DNA of 64,000 nt from an uncultured Ferrovum sp. (GTDB lineage: Bacteria > Pseudomonadota > Gammaproteobacteria > Burkholderiales > Ferrovaceae). Below the pieces are notes generated by a model. It ran no database searches. It had not been told where the DNA came from and saw nothing but the letters and a program-made list of their open reading frames with translations. The position numbers and the translations under genes are program-made. Numbering within the stretch: position 1 is the first letter of the stretch; every line of letters begins with the position of its first letter. Below, in pieces: positions 39,937 through 45,957 of this stretch. Location of the stretch: the NCBI GenBank assembly GCA_903909215.1, contig CAIVUX010000033.1:1-64000 (forward strand). Reading direction: 5' to 3'.

Positions 39937-42098
<2,162 letters not shown>

Positions 42099-42127: not shown

Positions 42128-42214
42128 GCCCGGGTGGCGAAATTGGTAGACGCATCAGACTCAAAATCTGACGCTGGCAACAGTGTGCCGGTTCGACTCC
42201 GGCCCCGGGCACCA
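42128..42214 (+). tRNA. tRNA-Leu(CAA)
   Basis: An 87-base type II tRNA with encoded CCA. The acceptor stem is GCCCGGG with CCCGGGC. The D-arm holds GAAATTGGTAGACGC, and the anticodon stem TCAGA/TCTGA encloses the loop CTCAAAA, giving anticodon CAA (codon UUG). The long variable arm CGCTGGCAACAGTG and the T-loop GTTCGACTCC are present. Its 3' end is partly copied at 44838-44855. Confidence 0.95.
42191..42208 (+). repeat. tRNA-Leu 3' segment, left copy of possible attachment repeat
   Basis: GTTCGACTCCGGCCCCGG in the T-arm/acceptor part of tRNA-Leu matches 44838-44855 at 17 of 18 bases. The 3' ends of tRNA genes are classic integration sites. Confidence 0.5.
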
Positions 42215-42328
42215 GCAAAAAAATTTAGTTGTCCATCCAAGTCCAACTATATCCGGATTATTTTATAACTTATAGCCATTCAGCTAAGTCGATGATGCTA
42301 TCACTTCATCACGCTTTTTTAGGGAAAA

Positions 42329-42733
42329 TTACTTTTGCAGCCGATCCCAGATGGATTCCATGATGAGAGAGGTTGCGCGATCGGCAGAGCAAACACCCTG
42401 ACAGACCACTGTGATTAGTTTCTTGTTGCCGCTGCGCAGCCCTAACTCCGCTTGAACATCTTCCGCCCACTCAGCAAGAGACACCATGAGATAGTCCCTT
42501 GACGCACTGCGGATGACTGATTTTTGGGTGGGGTTAAGGTTCCCTAGTATGGTCGACACTGCCGCATCGAGCGTCTCTGGCCAATTGTTTGAATTCTGTG
42601 CAGCGCTTGGCGACTGCTCCATGCTTGTCACTGTACGATCTGCTGGATCAACGGATTGCACTGTTTCAGCCGCAAGGATAATGTCGGGCATGATGGCCAT
42701 TGTGAGTGCCAGTAAAAATGGGAGCTTGCTCAT
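42329..42733 (-). CDS. Exported protein of unknown function (DUF6794-like pattern)
   Basis: A 134-residue protein with a signal peptide (MSKLPFLLALTMAIMPDIIL, cleavage near AAE), so probably periplasmic. The mature part has WPETLDAAVSTILGNLNPTQ, an ELGLRSGNKKLI segment with a following Cys pair (VVCQGVCS), and SLIMESIWDRLQ at the end. The spacing of W-P-T-L, G-L, G-N, L-C and I-W-L residues recalls a small domain I know as DUF6794, from memory only. It overlaps the cytochrome c gene by four bases, which ties it to the PQQ-dehydrogenase cluster. Confidence 0.6.
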   Translation of the reverse strand: MSKLPFLLALTMAIMPDIILAAETVQSVDPADRTVTSMEQSPSAAQNSNNWPETLDAAVSTILGNLNPTQKSVIRSASRDYLMVSLAEWAEDVQAELGLRSGNKKLITVVCQGVCSADRATSLIMESIWDRLQK

Positions 42734-43074
42734 TTTGGCATTTGAACTGTTATGCGCATGCTGGAATACCAGTTCGCTAGGCTTTCGATGTCCTCATCGG
42801 TAAGTTTTTTCGTAATGATAGTCATTTGTTGGTTTTGCCGCGCGCCCGCACGGAATGAGCGCAGTTGTTCTTGCAGATATTCGCGTTTCTGCCCGCTTAA
42901 GTTTGGCGCTCCCAGCAAGGTTGCAATGCCGTCCATGCCGTGACAGTTCTGACAGAGTGTCTTTACTTTGTCGGGTGCAATTAGCGCGTCGCTGGCCTCA
43001 GCCAATTGAGCTGCAGCGCCAAGAAAAAATATGTGTAGCAGTGTTGTAAGTATTTTTTTTGTGATGTTATTCAT
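42730..43074 (-). CDS. Periplasmic c-type cytochrome, single heme
   Basis: A 114-residue protein. The start ATG is at 43074 (MNNITKKILTTLLHIFFLGA), followed by a signal peptide ending near AEA. The heme-binding motif CQNCH is at about residues 41-45 and the distal Met ligand is probably in the QNQQMTIITKKLTDEDIE stretch. LANWYSSM is the typical C-terminal helix, so this is a class I cytochrome of the c4/c5/c553 type. It sits between the PQQ-type dehydrogenase gene and the exported unknown protein and is a likely electron acceptor for the former. Confidence 0.88.
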   Translation of the reverse strand: MNNITKKILTTLLHIFFLGAAAQLAEASDALIAPDKVKTLCQNCHGMDGIATLLGAPNLSGQKREYLQEQLRSFRAGARQNQQMTIITKKLTDEDIESLANWYSSMRITVQMPK

Positions 43075-43089
43075 GATGAGATTGCCCAA

Positions 43090-43122
43090 AGAAAAACGGG
43101 CGGAGCGTTAAGCCCCGCCCGT
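43090..43122 (-). terminator. Intrinsic terminator after the PQQ-type dehydrogenase gene
   Basis: On the minus strand ACGGGCGGGGC, loop TTAAC, GCTCCGCCCGT (one G-T pair) is followed by TTTTTC. It lies between the dehydrogenase and cytochrome c genes, so the cytochrome may depend on read-through or its own promoter. The plus strand also has a T-rich tail. Confidence 0.75.
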
Positions 43123-43139
43123 TTTAGTTTTCAACGAAA

Positions 43140-44456
43140 TTACTTCCCTTGATATGAGATGCGGTAAATTGCACCTGCTTTGTCGTCCGATACTAAGATA
43201 GAACCATCAACGTATTGTTTCACGTCAACCGGCCTGCCCAGATAAGCGCCTTCCGCGTTCATCCAGCCTTCCGCAAACGGTTCTGTTTTTACAGCGTTAC
43301 CCTTGTCGTCAAGATATGTCACCATTATTCTCGCGCCTCTTGGTTTTACAGCATTCCAAGAACCATGTTGCGCGTTAAAAATGGCGTTCTGATACTTGGC
43401 GGGGAACATTTTACCCGTGTAGAACATCATGCCCAGATCGGCAGCATGTGCGATCATTTCAACTTGAGGTTTGACATAATGATCTGCCAGTTCCTTGGGG
43501 ATTGGCTTGCCTTTGTACTCGTCAGTGCGCACTTCACCACCGCCATAATACGGGGCGCCATACCAACCACCAAGCTGCAGTACGCCGTTCACCGCAGGGA
43601 TCTTGTTCAGCTCTCCGGGTGGGGTTTCGTCGCCCATGCCGTCCACTTGATTGTCAGTAAACCACAAGCTGTTATCCTTTGGGTTAAATGCAAGCCCAGA
43701 GGAATTGCGGATACCGGTGGCCACCACTTTACGATTCTTGCCATCACGGTCGAAGCTGACGATCCCACCAATACCCCATTTGCGGTACAGGTCAATCTTT
43801 TCAGCAGGCTGGACGTTAAAAGGTTGTCCCAAGGTGATGTAGATTCTGTTGTCTGGTCCGATCACGCAGGCACGTGCAGTATGGTTGTACGATTCTTCTT
43901 CTGGAGGAATTAAATCGCCTTGCTTGACGATGGGGAATGCAACCGTATCGGAACCTTGTTGGAAGTATTCAGCTGCCGGGAACATCATGACGCGGTTACG
44001 CTCGGCAATGAACAGGAAGCCATCAGGTGAATAGCATGCACCGGCAGGGAGGTCGAACTTAAGGCTGGGGCTAAATTCATCAACCGTGTCGGCGACATTG
44101 TCCATGTCTCGGTCATTCGCTGAATAAACAGACCCTTTTAGAGTTCCGGCCCAAACCGTGGCGGTGTTGCGGCTAACGGCCATGCCACGTGCATCCGGTA
44201 CGATGGCGAACAATTCAATTTTAAACCCTTCAGGCAACTTGATCTGTTGCAGCATTTTTTTCAGGTTTTCAGCGTACTGACCACCTTGGGTAATGCGCTT
44301 CATCGGCCCCGTATCGGTTCGCTTGAAGGCGCCCAGCTTATCAAGGTTTGTGTCATCGTCTTTTGCCAAGCTGATGCTTGAGAATGATGAAAGTGCCAAA
44401 CAAGCTGCCAAGAAAACTGCCCGCTTCTTAAATACAGTTCTGATTGTTTTTTTCAT
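43140..44456 (-). CDS. PQQ-dependent sugar dehydrogenase-like protein (sorbosone dehydrogenase type)
   Basis: A 438-residue exported beta-propeller. The start is the ATG at 44456 (MKKTIRTVFKKRAVFLAACL), with GGAG 11 bases upstream and a signal peptide ending SLA. Family traits include LPEGFKIELFAIVPDARGMA, NRVMMFPAAEYF and HTARACVIGPDNRIYITLGQ. GIRNSSGLAFNPKDNSLWFT, FNAQHGSWNAVKPRGARIMV and GRPVDVKQYVDGSILVSDDK complete the pattern of soluble glucose/sorbosone dehydrogenases, which use PQQ to oxidise sugars or alcohols in the periplasm. No PQQ synthesis genes are visible, and the substrate is unknown. Base use looks more AT-rich than in the flanking genes. Confidence 0.82.
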   Translation of the reverse strand: MKKTIRTVFKKRAVFLAACLALSSFSSISLAKDDDTNLDKLGAFKRTDTGPMKRITQGGQYAENLKKMLQQIKLPEGFKIELFAIVPDARGMAVSRNTATVWAGTLKGSVYSANDRDMDNVADTVDEFSPSLKFDLPAGACYSPDGFLFIAERNRVMMFPAAEYFQQGSDTVAFPIVKQGDLIPPEEESYNHTARACVIGPDNRIYITLGQPFNVQPAEKIDLYRKWGIGGIVSFDRDGKNRKVVATGIRNSSGLAFNPKDNSLWFTDNQVDGMGDETPPGELNKIPAVNGVLQLGGWYGAPYYGGGEVRTDEYKGKPIPKELADHYVKPQVEMIAHAADLGMMFYTGKMFPAKYQNAIFNAQHGSWNAVKPRGARIMVTYLDDKGNAVKTEPFAEGWMNAEGAYLGRPVDVKQYVDGSILVSDDKAGAIYRISYQGK

Positions 44457-44508
44457 TCTGCTAAATCTCCTCAATATTTTTTATATGTTCTAATTAATCG
44501 TATAATTT

Positions 44509-44520
44509 ATTGACGTCAAT
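44509..44520. promoter_or_regulatory. Perfect palindrome ATTGACGTCAAT upstream of the PQQ-type dehydrogenase
   Basis: A 12-bp perfect palindrome 53 bases before the dehydrogenase ATG. On the minus strand it contains TTGACG, which could be the -35 box, so a bound protein would compete with RNA polymerase. The regulator is unknown and the -10 box is poor. Confidence 0.4.
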
Positions 44521-44650
44521 GCGTTTTTGCATGGCGTTTTGAGAGGTTACCCGTATTAATACCCAGCTGTCAACAAAGCAAAAAGTGCTGCCGATCTGTT
44601 GCATTGCACCAATAGAAAGGCGCGTAGTCCGCTGTCTACGAAACTCTATT

Positions 44651-44682
44651 CCGCCCCGGTAATTCCGGCGCGGGGGTTTTTT
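44651..44682 (+). terminator. Terminator-like hairpin in the gene-free stretch
   Basis: CCGCCCCGG, loop TAATT, CCGGCGCGGGGG with an internal bulge, followed by TTTTTT. No gene on the plus strand obviously needs it, so it may end a lost gene or RNA. Confidence 0.4.
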
Positions 44683-44764
44683 ATGATATAGCCGGGCATG
44701 CTGTGATACCACACGCTAGAATAAGCACATGAAGTCTGTCAAAATGGTGGTAGCAAGACTGACG

Positions 44765-44787
44765 TGACGGTAACTTTGACGGTAACT
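44765..44787. repeat. Tandem repeat TGACGGTAACT, two copies
   Basis: TGACGGTAACT occurs at 44765-44775 and 44777-44787, a 12-base period, 51 bases left of the tRNA-Leu remnant. Such short direct repeats flank integrase-binding regions in some elements, but two copies alone are weak evidence. Confidence 0.5.
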
Positions 44788-44837
44788 CTAAATTAAAATA
44801 ATCACAGAATGGCTATTCATGCGGGTTACGATCAACT

Positions 44838-44855
44838 GTTCGAGTCCGGCCCCGG
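44838..44855 (+). repeat. Partial copy of the tRNA-Leu 3' end (possible attachment-site remnant)
   Basis: GTTCGAGTCCGGCCCCGG matches the tRNA-Leu T-arm/acceptor end at 42191-42208 with one mismatch, in the same orientation. The two copies bracket about 2.6 kb holding the PQQ-type dehydrogenase cluster. Confidence 0.5.
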
Positions 44856-44892
44856 CCATGTCTATTAACCCCCAATATTACTTGATTACCCC

Positions 44893-45957
44893 ATGAGTCT
44901 TCTGTTTAGCCCCCTGTCACTGCGCAGCATCACCCTCCCCAATCGCATCGTGGTATCGCCCATGTGCCAATACTCAGCCCATGAGGGTGTGGCCAACGAT
45001 TGGCATTTAATGCATTTGGGGAAATTTGCCGTGTCCGGCGTGGGCATGGTTATTGTAGAAGCCACGGGCGTGGAAATGACGGGGCGCATTACCCCCCATT
45101 GCCTGGCCTTATGCAATGATCAGCAAGAAGCCGCGTTAACGCGCGTTGTGCAATTTTGCAAGGCTCACGGACCGGCGCGCATGGCCATTCAATTGGGTCA
45201 CGCGGGTCGCAAAGGCTCCACGCGGCGGCCGTGGGATGCCGGTGCGCCGCTCACTTCAACTCAAGGGGGTTGGTTAGTAGATGCGCCCTCTGCTATACCC
45301 TACAACAGCGATGGTGAAGTGCCTCATGCTCTGACCACCACTGACCTCACCCGCATCCTAAACGCATTTGTGAATTCTGCGCAACGCGCCTTGCGCGCCG
45401 GTTTTGAAGGCATTGAAGTGCATGGTGCGCATGGATATTTGTTGCATCAATTCCTGTCACCGCTCACCAACCAACGCACGGATGCCTATGGTGGCAGTCT
45501 AGAAAACCGCCTGCGTTATCCCCTGGAAGTCTTTAAAGCCGTGCGTGCCATCTGGCCCGAGCATTTGCCTTTGGGTATCCGCCTGTCTGCAGTGGATTGG
45601 GTCCCCGGGGGTCTGACCCCAGAAGATACGCTATTTAATGCAGCAGCATTTAAAGCCGCCGGCGCTGATTGGATTGATGTCTCCACAGGTGGATTGGTGG
45701 CCCATCAAAAAATTACCGTGGGCCCGGGCTATCAAGTGCCTTTTGCCGCACAAGTAAAACACGCCACCGCAGCCACCACTATGGCGGTGGGCATGATTAC
45801 CGACGCCCACCAAGCGGAAGCCATCCTGCAAAACGGTGATGCCGATTTAATTGCCATGGCACGCGCCATGTTGCGCAACCCCCATTGGGCATGGCACGCA
45901 GCAGAGGCTTTGAATGAAAGCGCAACTGTGGTTCCGCAATATCTGCGCGCGCGCTAG
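44893..45957 (+). CDS. NADH:flavin oxidoreductase, Old Yellow Enzyme family (YqjM-like)
   Basis: A 354-residue FMN-dependent ene-reductase TIM barrel. Visible motifs are NRIVVSPMCQYSAHEGVAND (the Cys of the YqjM class beside FMN), then AIQLGHAGRKGSTRRPWD. GFEGIEVHGAHGYLLHQFLS and FLSPLTNQRTDAYGGSLENR are the active-site His pair and signature. MAVGMITDAHQAEAIL and DLIAMARAMLRNPHW bind the FMN phosphate. Residues 239-243 (G-G-L-T-P) come from one 13-bp repeat copy. It ends 9 bases before the PLP decarboxylase gene. The physiological substrate is unknown. Confidence 0.92.
   Translation: MSLLFSPLSLRSITLPNRIVVSPMCQYSAHEGVANDWHLMHLGKFAVSGVGMVIVEATGVEMTGRITPHCLALCNDQQEAALTRVVQFCKAHGPARMAIQLGHAGRKGSTRRPWDAGAPLTSTQGGWLVDAPSAIPYNSDGEVPHALTTTDLTRILNAFVNSAQRALRAGFEGIEVHGAHGYLLHQFLSPLTNQRTDAYGGSLENRLRYPLEVFKAVRAIWPEHLPLGIRLSAVDWVPGGLTPEDTLFNAAAFKAAGADWIDVSTGGLVAHQKITVGPGYQVPFAAQVKHATAATTMAVGMITDAHQAEAILQNGDADLIAMARAMLRNPHWAWHAAEALNESATVVPQYLRAR
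45608..45620. repeat. GGGGTCTGACCCC palindrome, single copy inside the OYE gene
   Basis: One exact copy, read as G-L-T-P in the segment AVDWVPGGLTPEDT, a surface loop position after the conserved S-A-x-D-W motif. Confidence 0.9.

Follow-up and report, generated by a model that had tools for sequence, protein, structure and literature searches.

A probable degenerate mini-island at a tRNA-Leu gene carries a dehydrogenase–cytochrome c cassette in an uncultured Ferrovum

When a tRNA-directed tyrosine integrase inserts an element, the element supplies the 3' end of the tRNA gene and the native end is shifted to its other side. Replacement of a gene end is also described for islands at dusA, which are bounded by imperfect attachment-site (att) repeats of about 21 bp (PMC4482086). 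Here we describe a locus in the genome of an uncultured Ferrovum sp. (GCA_903909215.1; 1.53 Mb in 51 contigs) that is very probably a degenerate mini-island targeted to tRNA-Leu, the relic of an integrative element. The stretch analysed, referred to below as the window, comprises 64,000 nt (positions 1 to 64,000 of the forward strand of contig CAIVUX010000033.1), and a search of it with ARAGORN found a single tRNA gene. The features discussed are collected in Table 1.

Table 1. Features of the tRNA-Leu locus and its insert, in window coordinates.
Feature	Position	Strand	Remarks
queA	41040-42098	-	left flank, conserved in relatives
tRNA-Leu(CAA)	42128-42214	+	ARAGORN
Host part of tRNA-Leu(CAA)	42128-42190	+	from 42191 on presumably supplied by the element
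tRNA-proximal attachment-site core	42191-42211	+	GTTCGACTCCGGCCCCGGGCA
134-aa protein, secreted-looking	42329-42733	-	weak DUF6794 match, below Pfam cut-off
Small monohaem c-type cytochrome	42730-43071	-	one CxxCH
GSDH-family (glucose/sorbosone dehydrogenase) enzyme, secreted, 438 aa	43140-44456	-	PF07995
Gene-free distal edge	44475-44837		terminator-like GC hairpin and T run near 44650-44690
Direct-repeat pair TGACGGTAACT	44765-44787	+	12 bp apart, about 50 bp inside distal core
Distal attachment-site core, displaced native tRNA-Leu 3' end	44838-44858	+	GTTCGAGTCCGGCCCCGGCCA; ancestral GTTCGAG
OYE-family NADH:flavin oxidoreductase	44893-45957	+	right flank, conserved in relatives

The repeated tRNA end and the empty site

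The insert begins at the 3' end of the tRNA-Leu gene and finishes at a direct repeat of that end. As an earlier note on this DNA had claimed, a same-strand copy of the 18-mer at 42191-42208, differing from it by one base, is present at 44838-44855. Lengthened to 21 nt, the two cores differ at two positions (19/21 identical), and the distal one has a small deletion near its end. This is the sole such pair in the 1.53-Mb genome at up to two mismatches, and no further copy was found in the window at up to five. By chance, such a repeat would be expected about 2.5e-6 times within 3 kb on the same strand, or about 1e-4 times over both strands of the window.

The repeat can be polarised, as the ancestral copy is the distal one. 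Base 7 is G (GTTCGAG) in all 13 tRNA-Leu(CAA) genes read from relatives in the family. The window gene reads GTTCGAC, with C at this base, and the distal copy alone keeps the ancestral G. This is the arrangement that integration predicts, the element having furnished the new end and the native one now lying 2.65 kb further downstream.

The locus in relatives was surveyed in 61 genomes through queA, tRNA-Leu and OYE. Empty sites were found in four of them (G006, G018, G012 and G023), which belong to the same family as the window but to another genus, g7. In these genomes queA and OYE directly flank the tRNA, with about 147 bp from the start of queA to the start of OYE, tRNA included, and an order, read from the sequence, of queA, tRNA-Leu, about 30 nt and the OYE ATG. 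Taking the segment between the repeats out of the window restores this arrangement and leaves about 34 nt from the core to the OYE ATG. The earlier note held that finding the same three genes at this site across distant relatives would tell against insertion; the cassette is absent from the site in all same-family genomes examined. A chimaeric assembly of this draft or binned genome might be considered given its many contigs; however, both flanks keep the gene order of the empty site and the att sites themselves form the junctions, making this explanation negligible.

The gap between tRNA-Leu and OYE is variable, as different genes occupy it in other genera: an EamA-like transporter in g4 and an FAD-dependent oxidoreductase in g8 (names from translations). 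In G003, likewise of another genus, an IS200/IS605-like transposase pair, also named from translations, is inserted after the same tRNA-Leu (L177:1662-3227). In genome G007, tRNA and OYE are separated by 10.3 kb, which were not counted as a similar island because a second tRNA end is absent. Such variation without a second tRNA fragment (g4, g8 and the roughly 10 kb of different genes in G007), together with an insert that carries no integrase, is what could be expected if the genes had come in through ordinary recombination, whether homologous or illegitimate, and the fragment at 44838 were an unrelated partial duplication of a tRNA end. However, the distal copy is located exactly at the boundary of the OYE leader, where a displaced native end belongs, and it carries the ancestral base. 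Recombination of this kind is thus an improbable account, and site-directed integration is preferred.

Composition and origin of the insert

The insert spans 2.6 kb and holds three genes, all on the minus strand, and an edge of about 360 bp without genes. Its composition is foreign when judged against the 64-kb window, which was the reference used. The earlier note had called the insert AT-rich relative to its flanks, and this was borne out: at 48.0%, the GC content of 42215-44837 is the lowest among 614 windows of equal length, the value for the whole window being 53.2%. Codon usage, for which the earlier note had also suggested a comparison, is atypical as well. The codon-bias distance of the GSDH gene is 0.42 (maximum 0.29 among 55 length-matched chunks of window genes) and that of the whole cassette is 0.39 (maximum 0.29 among 214 blocks).

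No recognisable gene was found in 44475-44837, in agreement with the gene-free edge described earlier. The hairpin and T run in this edge look terminator-like (fold z-score -1.04), and the TGACGGTAACT pair close to the distal core could possibly represent arm-type sites of an integrase. A near-identical TGACGGTAACT pair lies downstream of a small-protein gene in viral contigs (L250-L256, L258). A search of viral contigs for the GACGGTAAC repeat pair gave nine matches. Eight come from one phage group, where the pair follows a gene encoding a protein of about 165 aa; the ninth falls within a coding stretch. In the viral loci read, no GACGGTAAC pair stands beside an integrase, so these matches are no proof of arm-type sites.

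The phylogeny of the dehydrogenase is also foreign. The enzyme is 83-87% identical to proteins from Comamonadaceae-type and other betaproteobacterial MAGs, and the queA genes of three genomes with close GSDH relatives (L003, L004 and L007) are only 52-53% identical to that of the window. In a quick maximum-likelihood tree with SH-aLRT supports and without bootstrap, it pairs with L004 (support 97) inside a 13-row clade of Comamonadaceae type (support 99). The same-family genomes have only distant GSDH paralogues (31-48% identity) or none. The cytochrome shares only about 50-62% identity with its counterparts from the nearest GSDH relatives and may therefore have a history separate from that of the dehydrogenase. 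A plasmid search returned only weak matches to GSDH genes. In L003 and L004, tRNA genes lie 1.2-1.6 kb upstream of the GSDH gene; these loci were rejected as tRNA islands, as no repeated tRNA end was found. In L004, the nearest relative, a VapBC-like toxin-antitoxin pair is situated between tRNA-Arg and the GSDH gene (L004:4881-5611).

A two-gene operon of GSDH and cytochrome c is widespread in Proteobacteria, as would suit an ancestral order of queA, tRNA, cassette and OYE that was lost in the relatives, with no insertion in the window. Against this stand the absence of the cassette at the site in every same-family genome examined, the foreign composition, a phylogeny nested in another group and the presence of the att repeat; an ancestral order is very unlikely, and acquisition by integration accounts for the locus better.

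The cargo enzymes and their cofactor

The dehydrogenase belongs to the GSDH family (PF07995, 41.5 bits against a cut-off of 25). Three positions or pairs are invariant in nine GSDH homologues (H192, R250-N251 and R408-P409), and these we take to fit the catalytic His and the PQQ-contacting Arg residues of soluble glucose dehydrogenase. A single-sequence search for solved relatives found none, and a profile search matched three solved members of the family with E values of 3e-5 to 4e-3. The window enzyme matches the profile of the GSDH or PQQ-dependent sugar dehydrogenase family (PF07995; solved relatives 2g8s, 6jt5 and 7cdy) and has the residues invariant among its homologues, although it is remote from the solved members and its use of PQQ is suggested only through the family.

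The earlier note had called the enzyme a PQQ-type dehydrogenase. Assignment to the GSDH family stands, and binding or use of PQQ would be consistent with the conserved His, Arg-Asn and Arg-Pro; as regards PQQ itself, a profile search found no PqqC in the window genome, the assembly of which is incomplete. Nor was PqqC found in the genomes of the nearest GSDH relatives, L003, L004 and L007, which are also incomplete assemblies. The PqqC profile did match in two other genomes; the PqqE profile yielded no more than a match far under its cut-off.

A small cytochrome c gene adjoins or follows the GSDH gene in most of 80 related loci, and the surroundings of the operon differ among the six relatives read. 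The two proteins probably pass electrons to the respiratory chain from an extracytoplasmic substrate, presumably a sugar or an alcohol. The DUF6794-like gene is not part of this conserved operon in related loci and is seldom found in the order (matches in 5 of 300 genomes, the window's own among them). The earlier note described three periplasmic redox genes: the three co-oriented genes are there, and the DUF6794-like gene falls outside the redox operon. A more speculative idea, which we consider rather unlikely, is that the GSDH–cytochrome c operon is a roaming respiratory cassette in bacteria that apparently do not make PQQ; it would either scavenge PQQ from neighbours or work independently of it, and small tRNA islands would be one route of its spread.

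Mobility and comparison with known elements

No integrase or integrase fragment was recognised in the insert. A search of the window genome for PF00589 recombinases turned up only XerD (C19) and XerC (C38), each above its NCBIfam equivalog cut-off, so the island is unable to move by itself. Since it has no integrase of its own, it is classed as a degenerate island and not as a mobile element. The integrated element without an integrase that the earlier note proposed is supported by the repeat, its polarity, the empty site, the foreign composition and the content of the insert.

In a same-family genome, G013, an element occupies the same tRNA-Leu (L273:315-2033). Directly after the tRNA come a truncated Arm-domain-like protein and a complete P4-like integrase of 402 aa, in that order; the integrase has Arm-DNA-bind_3, Phage_int_M and Phage_integrase domains, and genes that look phage-like lie beyond it. 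This indicates that the site is used for integration in the family. A likeness between the end of the G013 element and the left end of the window insert was not significant, as 212 of 2000 shuffles scored as high. In viral contigs, the 24-nt tRNA end was matched twice with C and 45 times with G. The majority of these matches resemble tRNA-Leu genes carried by phages, or tRNA-Leu ends attached to a different body, and were not accepted as relatives of the element. In one contig, L201, an integrase lies about 100 bp away from the core; the flanks there resemble the window ends no more than expected by chance.

The locus can be explained as follows. A tyrosine integrase would have acted on the chromosomal tRNA-Leu(CAA) gene in the queA-OYE interval, recombining it with an attP of the element that was near-identical to a tRNA-Leu 3' end. 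The element's copy would have rebuilt the 3' end of the tRNA, and the native end would have been moved to the opposite side of the insert. The integrase and any transfer genes may later have been deleted, as opposed to never having been present, to leave a 2.6-kb stub that keeps the secreted GSDH-family dehydrogenase, the small cytochrome c and the DUF6794-like gene.

The locus represents a well-resolved gene gain by a bacterium with a small genome, in which the direction of the exchange can be read from a single base, and it identifies the tRNA-Leu(CAA) gene next to queA as a site of integration in the family. The mechanism is a textbook one and the island is ordinary in kind. Unlike the tRNA-targeted islands, prophages and integrative elements of P4-like tyrosine integrases, the window island has no integrase, measures just 2.6 kb and carries three cargo genes. 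With these elements it shares insertion at a tRNA 3' end, a rebuilt tRNA, an imperfect direct repeat derived from the displaced end, foreign composition and the carriage of cargo genes.
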